62,707 bases of DNA from Candidatus Micrarchaeum sp. (GTDB lineage Archaea; Micrarchaeota; Micrarchaeia; CABMEP01): positions 56,555-119,261 of the forward strand of contig DYJP01000001.1 of the NCBI GenBank assembly GCA_020723065.1. The letters are read 5' to 3'. The notes beneath the pieces were generated by a model, which worked only from the letters and a program-made list of their open reading frames with translations, ran no database searches and was not told the origin of the DNA. Every line of letters begins with the position of its first letter. Position 1 is the stretch's first letter. The translations under genes and the position numbers were made by a program. Shown here one piece after another: positions 12,875 to 60,757 of the stretch.

Positions 12875-13297
12875 ATGGTTGCAGCTTCAAAAAAAGTCGG
12901 GATTAAACAGGTAATGCTCGACACCAATGCGCTGGTTTTTTCAGTTCAGAACAAGGTGGATTTTGTTTCAAGAATAACTGAAATGCTTGAAGGATGCAAC
13001 TTTGAATTCATCATTCCTTCTGGAGTTGTAGATGAGCTTCAGATGATGATTAATTCTAAATCTATAAAGACAAAGGATAAACTTTCCGCTGGCATCTCTC
13101 TTAAATTGATATCTGGCCTTGTGAATCAAAGGAAGATTAAGGTGGTCGACTCCGATCTTCCTGTTGATGATTGGATGATCAAACAGGCTAAACTGCCTGA
13201 AAACAAGGGCAGGCTGGCTGTTTTCACATATGATCGCCCACTCAAGCAATATTTAAAAAAGTTGGGAGTACAATTAATATTACTAAAGAAATACTGA
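12875..13297 (+). CDS. PIN-domain nuclease (Fcf1/Utp24-like archaeal type)
   Basis: VMLDTNALVF...; TYDRPLKQYLKKLGV. Confidence 0.8.
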   Translation: MVAASKKVGIKQVMLDTNALVFSVQNKVDFVSRITEMLEGCNFEFIIPSGVVDELQMMINSKSIKTKDKLSAGISLKLISGLVNQRKIKVVDSDLPVDDWMIKQAKLPENKGRLAVFTYDRPLKQYLKKLGVQLILLKKY

Positions 13298-13356
13298 TTA
13301 TATATTGATCAGGTATTTCTTTTTTGGCTTTTTATATTTGGAAGAGGTTAGATTTT

Positions 13357-13962
13357 ATGTATAAAGTTCTCACTGTTTCAGACACTGTAAGAGTGCCACC
13401 ATCCTATTTCACCATGGATCTTAATTCAGCGATATTGAGGATAATTCAGGAGAAATACGAGAGAAAGGTAGATCTCGAGAACGGAGTGGTGCTTAGGATC
13501 TGGAACATTCACGAAATAACAGGAGGAAAGGTCGTGCTCGGAGACGGAGCCGCCTACTACGACGTGAAGTATAACGTTCTCTCGTTCATACCAGAGATCC
13601 ACGAAGTGATCAATGGAGAGGTTTCCGAAGTTATGGACTTCGGAATGTTCGTAAACATGGGTCCTTTCGACGGCTTGGTACATCTTTCGCAGATCGCTAA
13701 CGATTTCATAACGTTTGACAAGAAGTCAGGCAACCTCGTCATGAAAGGAAGCAAGCACTCGATCAAGAAGGGAGACTTTGTCCGCGCAAGGATAGTTTCT
13801 GTGAGCCTGAAGCCCACGATTCCTGAGACGAAGATAGCGCTTACAATGAAGAGCGATGGTCTCGGCGGAATGAGCTGGCTCCAAGAAGAGGAGAAGGCGA
13901 AGAAGCCAAAGAGAGAGGGCAAGGAAGAGAAGAAGGAGAAGAAATCCAAGAAGAAGGAATAA
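13357..13962 (+). CDS. rpoE1: DNA-directed RNA polymerase subunit E' (Rpo7)
   Basis: MYKVLTVSDTVRVPP...S1 domain, Lys-rich tail; ATG at 13357 preferred over the ORF-track start. Confidence 0.92.
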   Translation: MYKVLTVSDTVRVPPSYFTMDLNSAILRIIQEKYERKVDLENGVVLRIWNIHEITGGKVVLGDGAAYYDVKYNVLSFIPEIHEVINGEVSEVMDFGMFVNMGPFDGLVHLSQIANDFITFDKKSGNLVMKGSKHSIKKGDFVRARIVSVSLKPTIPETKIALTMKSDGLGGMSWLQEEEKAKKPKREGKEEKKEKKSKKKE

Positions 13963-14215: not shown

Positions 14216-16867
14216 TTAATTCCATTCAGTCTTTTTCTTTTTTGATCTTCTGTTCAGCCACTTCTTTATTTCGAACAGCAGAGTCAGCGAGAAGATCATC
14301 GGCAATGCATAGGCCCACTGCATGAGCGACATTTGCTTAAGCTCGAAAATTCCGGAAAGGAACGGCACGTAAAATGCAAGGAGCATCAAACCCACTATGA
14401 CAGATATGGAGAGTATAATGTGCCTTGATGTTCGTTTTATAGACTTGATTATTGAGTCGTCTATTGAAACCGAATTCAGGATTATGCCTATAACCGCAAC
14501 AAGAAGTGTGCCTATTGTTAACGACCTTTCGAATCCTTTGAAGATCGGCAGCGTGGTGAATATTCCAATGTATATTGAAACGAAAAGCGCGATAAGCAGC
14601 ATGAAGGCATACTCTCCAGTCTGCGGGAACTTCTTGGAAGTTTTTTTTCTTAGAGATTCTTCGTAGATGCTTTCTTTAGCGAAGCTTGTTGATATCGCAG
14701 TGTCAGCTATCAAGTTGATGAGGAGAATCTGCATCGCAGTCACCATGTCCCCGGTGAATATTATCGCGTTCACCATTATCGTGAAGAATATGGATAGGTC
14801 GGATGCGAACAGTGCGTAGAAAGTCCTTTCTATGGCGCGCCTCATGTCCTTTGACTCTTCGATCAGATCTATCATCGATTCGTAGCTGTCATTCTTGATT
14901 ATTCCTTCTGCATTGTATTTTATCGTGTCCGGTGAGCTTTCCACTGCAAGAGCAACGTTAGAGTAGAGGAAAGGGGAGGAGTCTATCCCGGTCGATTCGA
15001 TGTAAGTTACCTGATGTCCTTCTTGCCTGAACGTGTCTAGTATTATCTTTTCGTATTCCGTGGTGGACTCAGAAAATACGGTTGTATCCAGTATTCTTTT
15101 CATCCTTTCTTCGGGTCTGAGGAACTTTATCTCGTCGCAGATCATGGCCTTGGATCCTTTTTGCATAACTCCGATTTCTCTCGCGAAATTAACCGCCTTT
15201 CCGCTCGACTCAGTTGTTATGATTATAGGTCTTATCCCGGAGCTTATTAGGGTCTCTATCCTCTTTTTTATTTCGTGTTTCGGCGGGTCGTATATCCCTA
15301 TCAGTGAAAGCAATGTGAAATATTCTGGTTCATTTTTCTTCCATGCAAATGCAAACGCGTAGACAGTCTGACCCCTTGCGCTCATTTTCGCCTGTACAGT
15401 TTCCATCTCATTCTTTATCTTCTTGTCTATCTTCAGGAATTTCCCGTTGGAGTACATGGACTTGCATCGGTTGGCTACATCTTCGACGGGGCCGAACATC
15501 GTGAATGTTGTCCTGTTTCTGCTCCTGAGCTGCGTGATTGTGACTTTCTCGTCCTGTCTTCTGTTTAAGGCGATCCATTCTCCTCTGATGTTGTTGATTG
15601 GCACCCTGTTCTTCATCGCCATGACGATCAGCGCGCCTTCTATCGGGTCGCCGTCCATAATGCGGCTGTCATTTGCGTATTCCAGGCTTGCCTCTGTTGA
15701 TGCCGCCGCAAGTTCGGTGAGCAGGTCTATGGATGCATAGCTCTTCGCTCCCTTGAACATTCCGAGCGTGTCCCATCCGTCTCCAGTTACTGTTATCTCT
15801 TTCCTGTCCGTCCAGAGGTTTCTTACCGTGGGTTCGTTCCTGCTTAGCGACTTCAGTATCTCAGTGCTTATAATGGTGGTTCTTCCGAGCTTGTCCACCA
15901 TGCTCTCTTTTCTTATTATTGCAAATTTGGACATCCTTTCCATTGAGCTTGCATAGATGTAGGATGCGATTGAATACACTGTCTCCGGTACCGCCGCCAC
16001 TATGGCAGCAGCCGTGATTACCACCGAAGTGAAAATCGGAACTTCGTCAAGCGTAAGCTGGAGAAGGATCACAAGCGATGCAAGGTATACCACCGGAGTG
16101 AAAGAATCCGTAGCCTTCTTCACCCTTCCTATCGCGTCGTTTCTCTTGGGGTCTGCGGAGAAGGGCTCCCTTATTCCGTATGTTATATGGTACTTCGTCT
16201 TCTCTCCGATTGACGTCACTCTCATCATTAGCTCCCCCTGGATCACGAACGTTCCTGCGTAAACGGAGGCGGGATCCGATTTGTACGGCTTGAAGCTTTT
16301 CTGCACCTCAAGTTCCGGAAGCTTGTCCACCACTTCTCCCCTGAATATACTTTCGTCAACTTTGCATTCCGAGGACTTTATTACGATTCCGTCTGCCGGG
16401 ATCATCATTCCTGTTTTAAGAAGCACTATGTCTCCGGGAACTATGTCTTCTATCCTGACGCGCTTTACCATGCCATCCCTGAATACTCTGGTATCTCCGG
16501 AGAATTCAGAGGTGTTGCTTATTATCTTGGCCTCTGTGTCCTTTTCCCTCTTCCAGTTCATGGCTATTGTTATGGAAATTATCAGGAGGATAGAGATTCC
16601 TTCGATAACGCTGACTGTGGAAAGGAATATCGCAGCAAGTATGAGTAGGAGTATAGGGTAGCTGAACTGGGAAAAGAATATGTCTAAGTTTTTGCTTCGT
16701 ACATAGGAGACGAGTCTGTTCTTCCCGTGCTTCTTTTCCAGTTCTTTTGCCTCTACAGTTGTGAGCCCTATAGGCATTATCTTTCCGGTTGAGATCTGCT
16801 TAGAAATAGTTTCATCTTTTCCGTTTTTTTCATTCTGGTTGGATTTTTTAGGAGCCATATTTATCAA
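14216..16867 (-). CDS. P-type ATPase homolog with degenerate catalytic motifs (predicted pseudo-ATPase)
   Basis: Full-length P-type architecture (883 aa), but DKTGTLT is EILKSLS, TGES is RGEV, KGAPE is FGPVE, TGD is TTE and GDGVND is ESTGID. Confidence 0.88.
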   Translation of the reverse strand: MINMAPKKSNQNEKNGKDETISKQISTGKIMPIGLTTVEAKELEKKHGKNRLVSYVRSKNLDIFFSQFSYPILLLILAAIFLSTVSVIEGISILLIISITIAMNWKREKDTEAKIISNTSEFSGDTRVFRDGMVKRVRIEDIVPGDIVLLKTGMMIPADGIVIKSSECKVDESIFRGEVVDKLPELEVQKSFKPYKSDPASVYAGTFVIQGELMMRVTSIGEKTKYHITYGIREPFSADPKRNDAIGRVKKATDSFTPVVYLASLVILLQLTLDEVPIFTSVVITAAAIVAAVPETVYSIASYIYASSMERMSKFAIIRKESMVDKLGRTTIISTEILKSLSRNEPTVRNLWTDRKEITVTGDGWDTLGMFKGAKSYASIDLLTELAAASTEASLEYANDSRIMDGDPIEGALIVMAMKNRVPINNIRGEWIALNRRQDEKVTITQLRSRNRTTFTMFGPVEDVANRCKSMYSNGKFLKIDKKIKNEMETVQAKMSARGQTVYAFAFAWKKNEPEYFTLLSLIGIYDPPKHEIKKRIETLISSGIRPIIITTESSGKAVNFAREIGVMQKGSKAMICDEIKFLRPEERMKRILDTTVFSESTTEYEKIILDTFRQEGHQVTYIESTGIDSSPFLYSNVALAVESSPDTIKYNAEGIIKNDSYESMIDLIEESKDMRRAIERTFYALFASDLSIFFTIMVNAIIFTGDMVTAMQILLINLIADTAISTSFAKESIYEESLRKKTSKKFPQTGEYAFMLLIALFVSIYIGIFTTLPIFKGFERSLTIGTLLVAVIGIILNSVSIDDSIIKSIKRTSRHIILSISVIVGLMLLAFYVPFLSGIFELKQMSLMQWAYALPMIFSLTLLFEIKKWLNRRSKKKKTEWN

Positions 16868-16890: not shown

Positions 16891-18117
16891 TTACTGCTTG
16901 ACGATTACCCTTTCCGCCACGCTGCTGATTCTTTCCAGCTTGAGGGGTATTCTTGTACCTATCGGAGTCTGCGCTATCGCGGTTTCGGCCTTCCGGTCTA
17001 TTCCTATTATCTTTCCGATGTAGGCGCCTATATCGGTTATCACTTCCTTGCCCTCAAGCTTCATTTTGACTGCGATCTTGACCTTGAGCTTTCTTGCGAT
17101 CTCTATGGTCAGGAGTGATACTGCTATAGTGAGTATTATCGTGGCCATGAATTCGTAAAACCATGAATCACCAATCACCCATGAAAGCGCTATGTAGCTG
17201 AGGAAGGATACCATTAATCCGTTCACAGTGTACTGCCCGGTATCCACGAGTTCGAAATAGCTTCCTTTCGGATAAAGTTCTATTGTTTTGCCTACCATCA
17301 GAAGTACTATTATGACCAGGAGGAATGGGGAGAATATGGGCCTGAGGCTGTAGGCCACGGATTCCACGAAAGAGTAGCCGTTCTGTGTGGCGAAGGTGTA
17401 TTCGTTCACCCCTATTGAAAGCGAGATTATCGCCAATGCCAGTATTGGAACATACACAACCAGCGCCATCTTAGTAGAAGGCATGATCAGGTTCCTTATG
17501 GTGTTAATCATGAACTCCTCCACTCCGAAACCTTTCAGAAGCAGATATAACCCTACGATCCCGATTATTGGTTTCCAGCCGTACCCTAAAGTGTCGCTGA
17601 TGAGGAATGAGATAAGTATCAACGCAGGTATTCCGAAGAAAAGCCTTGCATAGTAAGGCTCCTTAAGCTTGCCAAGAAGCGTGACGTATGTTTTTTCCAG
17701 TTCCTTTGCCTGCTTCATAACCACTGTTTTCTTTGAGTCTATCTTGACTCTGGAAGAGATTAGAGGAAGTATCTCCTCGTCGTCCGCTCCGTCCGTCACG
17801 AATATACAGGAGGTTGCGTGGAACTGTTGGAGTATTGATTCCAGTTGGGTAACTAGCTTCTTGTCTGCCTTGTATCCGAGCGAGTTATCTCCAGTGATGG
17901 TGACAATCTCTGCCTTTTTAGTCTTTGTGATTTCATCATATATCTTTACCGCCTGGAACATCGCGTTTGCATCCACTTCTTCAGGGTCGTGAAGTAGTAG
18001 ATTTGTGGCTGCCTGTACGTTTGCCTGCCGTCCTATGACTGGACCTATTATTTTAGCTTTCTTGCCCAGGTCATCGTCTCTGTCGACGCACAATATTAAG
18101 ACATTATCCTTCGCCAT
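16891..18117 (-). CDS. DUF373 family archaeal membrane protein
   Basis: VLILCVDRDDDLGKKAKIIGPVIGRQANVQAATNLLLHDPEEVDANA N-terminus, multiple TM segments. Confidence 0.88.
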   Translation of the reverse strand: MAKDNVLILCVDRDDDLGKKAKIIGPVIGRQANVQAATNLLLHDPEEVDANAMFQAVKIYDEITKTKKAEIVTITGDNSLGYKADKKLVTQLESILQQFHATSCIFVTDGADDEEILPLISSRVKIDSKKTVVMKQAKELEKTYVTLLGKLKEPYYARLFFGIPALILISFLISDTLGYGWKPIIGIVGLYLLLKGFGVEEFMINTIRNLIMPSTKMALVVYVPILALAIISLSIGVNEYTFATQNGYSFVESVAYSLRPIFSPFLLVIIVLLMVGKTIELYPKGSYFELVDTGQYTVNGLMVSFLSYIALSWVIGDSWFYEFMATIILTIAVSLLTIEIARKLKVKIAVKMKLEGKEVITDIGAYIGKIIGIDRKAETAIAQTPIGTRIPLKLERISSVAERVIVKQ

Positions 18118-21883: not shown

Positions 21884-22020
21884 GGGCTTGTAGCTCAGAC
21901 TGGTAGAGCGCGTCGTTCGCATAAACTTTCTTAGGAAGAAAGTTTAATCAAAGAAAAACTTTCTTAAGAAAAAAGTTTCGGAAAACGACGAGGCCGCGAG
22001 TTCAAATCTCGCCAAGTCCA
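21884..22020 (+). tRNA. tRNA-Ala(CGC) with a ~65-nt BHB intron (about 21922-21986)
   Basis: GGGCUUG/CAAGUCC acceptor with G3:U70, anticodon stem CGUCG/CGACG, UUCG/CGGA central helix, 3-nt AAA bulge. End coordinate good to about 2 nt. Confidence 0.88.
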
Positions 22021-42669: not shown

Positions 42670-42811
42670 GGCCGCAGCCGAGAATCGAACTCGGGCCCGA
42701 AGGTTTCTATGAAGTTCCCTTGAAAGAACATTTCATCGATTTTCTGATGAAACTCTTTTTTCAAAAGAGTTTCTCCACAGCCTTCCGTGCTACCATTACA
42801 CCACCGCGGCC
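42670..42811 (-). tRNA. tRNA-His(GTG) with a ~70-nt BHB intron (about 42705-42774)
   Basis: G-1/C73, GCCGCGG/CUGCGGC acceptor, GAAGG/CCUUC anticodon stem, loop CUGUGG, CUGUG/CAUAG central helix, AAA bulge. Confidence 0.9.
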
Positions 42812-60648: not shown

Positions 60649-60757
60649 CCCACCGTAGCTCAATCTGGCAGAGCGCCTCGCTGTAGTTCCAGCCTGTCGG
60701 TTTTCGGCAGATTTCGTAGAAACGAGGATGTTGCTGGTTCAAATCCGGCCGGTGGGA
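60649..60757 (+). tRNA. tRNA-Tyr(GTA) with a ~35-nt BHB intron (about 60687-60721)
   Basis: CCCACCG/CGGUGGG acceptor (C1:G72), CCUCG/CGAGG anticodon stem, CUGU/GUAG central helix, AAA bulge. Confidence 0.92.

Follow-up and report, generated by a model that had tools for sequence, protein, structure and literature searches.

The gene under study occupies positions 14216–16867 on the minus strand of the window, by which we mean the whole 62,707-nt stretch of Candidatus Micrarchaeum sp. DNA that was analyzed. The original prediction, which left the strand unstated, saw here a full-length and uninterrupted P-type ATPase, and the frame is indeed open, running for 883 codons with zero internal stops. 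Its first codon is TTG, with an ATG at codon 4 (position 16858) that is the probable translation start. Immediately upstream on the same strand, 23 nt from the TTG, lies a gene encoding a DUF373 membrane protein (16891–18117). Elsewhere in the window, Rfam identifies tRNAs of 137, 141, and 109 nt, at 21884–22020 (plus strand), 42670–42810 (minus), and 60649–60757 (plus), which were missed by ARAGORN; these three long tRNA genes probably contain introns.

Homology searches place the 883-aa product, which we refer to as the pseudo-pump, close to the P2A Ca2+-ATPases (SPCA1/PMR1, SERCA, and Listeria LMCA1). It shares with them the whole fold, the domain order, and the Pfam N-terminal (PF00690), A (PF00122, E1-E2_ATPase, 104 bits), and C-terminal (PF00689) domains, all above cut-off, while no P/N hydrolase domain scored above threshold in the same Pfam search. 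The best NCBIfam models are those of SERCA-type (TIGR01116, E 1.4e-66, residues 72–873) and PMR1-type (TIGR01522) Ca2+ ATPases, but the scores of 215–225 bits contrast with curated cut-offs of 703–798 bits for these models. A search of solved structures returned human SPCA1 and Listeria LMCA1 at the top, matching residues 33–877. An AlphaFold2 model computed from 49 sequences (pLDDT 85, pTM 0.82) displays a complete P2-type fold, with low confidence at the N terminus and near the broken TGES loop, where pLDDT falls below 50 at residues 189–196. The three-domain headpiece and the M1–M10 fold superpose on SPCA1 and SERCA E1 structures with TM scores of 0.83–0.86, the nearest solved states being E1 (SERCA 4h1w, TM 0.86; SPCA1 8iwr, TM 0.84), while most E2P forms give 0.55–0.66. 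The weight of this comparison is limited by the alignment behind the model, which consists mostly of active homologs, and by a possible default bias of AlphaFold2 to E1. The palytoxin-channel form of Na,K-ATPase (9vj0, TM 0.81) is also among the matches, as are many other E1 states. As modeled, the pseudo-pump preserves the P2-type ATPase fold.

A single phosphorylated Asp is the defining feature of P-type ATPases, which are usually assumed to be pumps, and proteins with degenerate motifs such as TMEM94 are disputed. We aligned the pseudo-pump with 60 distinct DKTG-bearing homologs and human SPCA1 (residues are given in SERCA numbering), which bore out each of the motif readings made originally, at TGES, DKTG, KGA, TGD, and GDGVND, all encoded on the minus strand. 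At the phosphorylation motif of the P domain (15842–15862), DKTGTLT reads EILKSLS, so that five of five residues of DKTGT are altered: the acceptor D351 is replaced by Glu in all three orthologs, and K352, T353, G354, and T355 are lost. The DNA quoted earlier for this region corresponds to the minus strand at 15842–15871. The TGES position in the A-domain dephosphorylation loop (16331–16342) reads RGEV, or QRGI and GRGI in the orthologs, and the KGA position of the N domain (15488–15496) is FGP in all three, K515 having become Phe. TGD (15209–15217) is TTE here and TSA or THE in the orthologs; in this pseudo-pump, the Thr is retained and G626 and D627 are gone. At the P-domain Mg/hinge motif (14981–14998), GDGVND reads ESTGID, and ESxGxD across the trio, with G702 replaced by Glu, D703 by Ser, N706 lost, and the final Asp, D707, alone retained. 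Beyond these motifs, the equivalent of K684 (15050–15052, minus strand) is Glu in all three proteins, although D351 and K684 are present in 59/59 active homologs. R678 is replaced by Glu, R560 is Thr, Lys, or Glu among the three orthologs (Thr in this window), and the column of the adenine-stacking F487 is a gap.

Of 88 columns in which the active relatives show at least 90% conservation, 38 are altered in all three pseudo-pumps, including phosphorylation, Mg, nucleotide, and phosphate-contact residues. These losses go beyond chance, since the protein retains a 104-bit Pfam match and two independently assembled orthologs share them. Because the acceptor, the Mg2+ site, the nucleotide contacts, and the dephosphorylation loop have been lost together, the P-type cycle is very probably impossible. 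Judged by its sequence, the pseudo-pump is thus a P-type ATPase by descent and not by its defining enzymatic features. We also considered whether fixed new residues at the dead sites mark a new active site. This idea was dropped, since a fixed substitution is seen in 14 of 37 lost columns, which is close to the 36% of columns that are invariant overall and gives no evidence of a new use for the dead site.

As for the membrane domain, it qualifies the original claim that every catalytic site is lost. The catalytic residues are gone, together with further ones that the claim did not list, but an intramembrane ion site is kept, and hence not all functional sites have disappeared. A helix-breaking Pro followed by an acid in M4, together with Asn and Asp in M6, makes up Ca2+ site II. 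In the pseudo-pump, the M4 residues PE (15983–15988, minus strand), equivalent to P308-E309 of SERCA, are kept (PD in one ortholog, G001), and the M6 segment NLIAD (14702–14716, minus strand) contains the equivalents of N796 and D800 in all three proteins; the E309, N796, and D800 positions therefore read E/D/E, N/N/N, and D/D/D. A SERCA-like site I (N768, E771, T799) is absent and reads D, I, A, with the M5 equivalent of N768 (14798–14800, minus strand) being Asp in all three. Compared with P2A Ca2+-ATPases, the pseudo-pump thus keeps the M4 Pro-acid pair, the M6 Asn and Asp, and the DPP hinge but is without the acceptor Asp, K684, the nucleotide-contact Lys, Arg, and Phe, TGES, and GDGVND. 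The retained site II may bind a cation, as read from three or four residues, the weak points being the missing E771 and T799 equivalents and the change from Glu to Asp in M4 of G001.

The source genome (0.65 Mb in 22 contigs) encodes the pseudo-pump and two intact P-type ATPases. The original prediction proposed a search for orthologs sharing its substitutions in related archaeal genomes, and two were found, both in unbroken frames and with the same losses. The first, 59% identical, is in Micrarchaeota isolate SKW71 (G001, contig JAOAKO010000006.1), and the second, 48% identical, is in G002 (contig CABMEP010000001.1); the two hosts, one a further species of the same genus and the other from a different genus of the family, are the only other genomes sampled for this family. 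Relatives with intact motifs, which would have marked a strain-specific dying gene, were thus not what we encountered: the orthologs are equally dead, and the two intact frames rule out strain-specific decay. Each of the three genomes also encodes active P-type ATPases, among them a Ca2+-pump-like protein with 53–71% mutual identity. The pseudo-pump is present in only 3 of 302 genomes of the class, all of one Micrarchaeota family, and a profile search at E 1e-100 found none among the other 299, which are all the class genomes sampled for the phylum. When the class was scanned at E 1e-60, other genomes scored about 200–320 bits, the level of ordinary paralogs, against more than 1600 bits for the trio. 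A pattern scan of 85,462 GTDB genomes, with a pattern that detects close relatives only, hit the same family and no other. The evidence base is therefore three pseudo-pump sequences, of which one comes from a genome that is 54% complete.

Codon comparisons reveal how these three genes have been maintained. Pairwise divergence within the trio is 0.62–0.75 at third positions and 0.21–0.31 at second positions, and whereas neutral drift, assumed to run to 0.5 substitutions per site, would be expected to produce about 54 stops, none is observed. A dN/dS near 1, named beforehand as contrary evidence, was not obtained: the fitted omega is 0.026 for the pseudo-pumps, compared with 0.026 and 0.020 for two active trios, although only the direction of these values is safe because synonymous branches are saturated. 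In the tree, the pseudo-pumps form a clade with 100% support whose stem is 2.29 changes per site long, and branches inside the clade measure 0.26–0.47, against 0.18–0.46 for active paralogs of the same genomes. Such branch lengths are those of an early burst of change after which constraint set in again. A single loss of catalysis in the ancestor of one Micrarchaeota family, with purifying selection afterward, appears well supported by these comparisons. An origin by duplication of the cell's own active Ca2+ pump was considered as well, but the tree does not group the two, and the placement of the trio is unsure because of its long stem. That the pseudo-pump is catalytically dead and under purifying selection is a conclusion in which we have high confidence. 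The conserved, nonenzymatic membrane role put forward originally gains support accordingly from orthologs that share the losses in open frames and from a divergence biased to third codon positions.

Constraint has also shifted between domains, whose borders we took from motif positions. The N domain (residues 351–514; 15326–15817, minus strand) is conserved relatively more than in active pumps: the identity of the N domain minus that of the P domain lies between −0.37 and −0.09 in active pumps (606 overlapping, and not independent, pairs of 42–62% identity) but is +0.005, +0.096, and +0.021 in the three pseudo-pump pairs. Relative to the active trio of the same genomes, the shift amounts to 0.27 (95% bootstrap interval, 0.16–0.39). 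It follows that the P domain has lost its special constraint and that the N domain, although without its known ATP contacts, has kept or gained constraint. Identity in the membrane domain is 0.494, compared with 0.564 for the active paralogs.

In all three genomes, the pseudo-pump gene is directly downstream of DUF373, with gaps of 22–68 nt. The 68-nt gap is in G002 (L003 2845–2912, minus strand) and holds a TATA-like AATAATATATAG, about 25–30 nt before the pseudo-pump ATG, so that this copy may have its own promoter. Of 59 relatives, 58 have a DUF373 gene, which passes the family cut-off in 57 and is nearly always single-copy. In other families, it is commonly found between Csl4/RpoL and Lon with no ATPase, and the pseudo-pump was therefore probably added behind DUF373 in this Micrarchaeota family. 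Since the Csl4-RpoL/DUF373/Lon order is conserved without the pseudo-pump, the adjacency may be passive, and the case for a special functional tie from synteny alone is weakened; the wider spacing in G002 also speaks against such a tie. Nevertheless, the pair stays together while the downstream genes vary, with PIN and RpoE1 genes inverted in the source genome relative to G001 and a different gene in G002; this retained pairing supports, but does not prove, a functional link. The inverted segment, at 12875–13962 of the window (plus strand) and L033 7212–8206 (plus strand), is defined relative to DUF373, NFACT-R, and Lon and distinguishes the two species of the genus. A model of DUF373, with a pTM of only 0.51, has an N-terminal domain that is Rossmann-like, a set of several membrane helices, and a small C-terminal β-barrel. 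Among solved structures, this barrel best matches the PRC-barrel of Archaeoglobus CdpB1/CdpB2 (8onw, E 1.7e-3, probability 1.00), and a structural search with the whole protein gave no confident match.

What remains of the pump is a membrane cation site and a large cytosolic headpiece, which makes an ion-responsive sensor or scaffold the most economical role. The original prediction likewise offered scaffold, sensor, or partner subunit as an inference. The mechanism that we tentatively favor, at somewhat under even chances when taken as a whole, is that of a P2-type ATPase kept for a binding function. The pseudo-pump would rest in an E1-like state facing the cytosol, and a divalent cation would bind the sole remaining intramembrane site, composed of the M4 Glu/Asp, the M6 Asn and Asp, and the extra M5 Asp. 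Much as in a working pump, occupancy would move helices M4 and M5 along with the headpiece. The conserved N domain, freed from ATP, would serve as a docking surface and communicate this state to a partner, for which the likeliest candidates are DUF373, the membrane protein encoded next to it, and the active paralog of the Ca2+-pump type. We infer cation binding, conformational signaling, and the identity of the partner alike. It is doubtful that an archaeal pump has here become an ion receptor, with the cation site as sensor and the ATP-binding domain as docking output, acting together with DUF373, which nearly all genomes of the class encode.

Other roles would draw on the same remnants. Dead paralogs that regulate live ones are a common pseudoenzyme pattern, and the pseudo-pump might be a regulatory subunit that controls the intact Ca2+-ATPase through headpiece contacts, its ion site serving for stability only. 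All three genomes do carry active P-type ATPases, including the Ca2+-pump-like one, but such pumps also occur in the majority of relatives that lack the pseudo-pump. The two genes do not lie side by side either, and P2 ATPases generally function as monomers, so we regard this role too as doubtful. The constraint on the N domain and the retained fold would equally suit a purely structural scaffold that has nothing to do with ions, anchored in the membrane and using its cytosolic domains to hold a partner complex together; this is unlikely, since the M4 and M6 ion residues persist while most catalytic residues are gone. Those residues, acidified by the M5 Asp, might alternatively line a passive channel in which, with no phosphorylation to lock the gates, cations flow down their gradient, as happens when palytoxin holds Na,K-ATPase open. 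The match to 9vj0 fits such a leak, though many other E1 pump states matched too, but a large headpiece under constraint, in the N domain most of all, would be superfluous for a simple channel, and the membrane domain is less conserved than in active paralogs, making a channel distinctly unlikely.

To a decaying gene or an assembly artefact we give almost no credence: the strong motif loss resembles a first stage of decay, but the orthologs are open in three assemblies, second-position divergence is low, and synteny is conserved. Very improbable as well is a cryptic enzyme, an unusual ATPase or phosphatase that would work with the Glu replacing D351, much as human ERMA, itself contested, uses a non-canonical loop. 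The acidic Glu is conserved in 3/3 orthologs, and the literature on TMEM94/ERMA is divided on activity with degenerate motifs (PMC12134183, PMC13322241). A cryo-EM study of TMEM94 found a P-type fold with TGES absent and detected neither ATPase activity nor a phosphorylation cycle (PMC12134183), whereas work from 2026 reports that the protein, which keeps DK (DKQGI), pumps Mg2+ and needs the Asp to do so (PMC13322241). ERMA, however, still has its acceptor Asp and is inactive as a D427N mutant; its DK and its hinge GSSANL (PMC13322241) correspond to EI and ESTGID in the pseudo-pump, in which the Asp, K352, T353, K684, D703, N706, K515, R560, and TGES are all absent. TMEM94/ERMA, with degenerate TGES and GDGVND motifs in a P-type fold, is the nearest published precedent, but it is eukaryotic and likened here by its described features, not by close relationship, and the archaeal protein lacks even its acceptor Asp.

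A P-type scaffold within a signaling protein, as in our favored reading of the pseudo-pump, is also known from guanylyl cyclases of apicomplexans, to which a P4-ATPase-like domain is fused. In Plasmodium GC-alpha, however, this domain has its catalytic residues intact, and attempts to select parasites carrying a substitution of the Asp did not succeed (PMC7858053). Pumps acting as transceptors have been suggested for another P-type subfamily in a 2023 review (PMC10654040). The collection of open-access papers that was searched, which omits most subscription journals, yielded no description of a prokaryotic counterpart, including any archaeal pump without the conserved Asp, and no paper combining "P-type ATPase" with "pseudoenzymes." A prokaryotic family whose catalytic residues are gone, maintained in small genomes (0.65 Mb here) that also encode active paralogs, makes it possible to ask cleanly whether a P-type scaffold can be useful when it no longer catalyzes anything. 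To call its members "calcium-transporting ATPase" would be a mistake, and the family could also help to reveal the function of DUF373.
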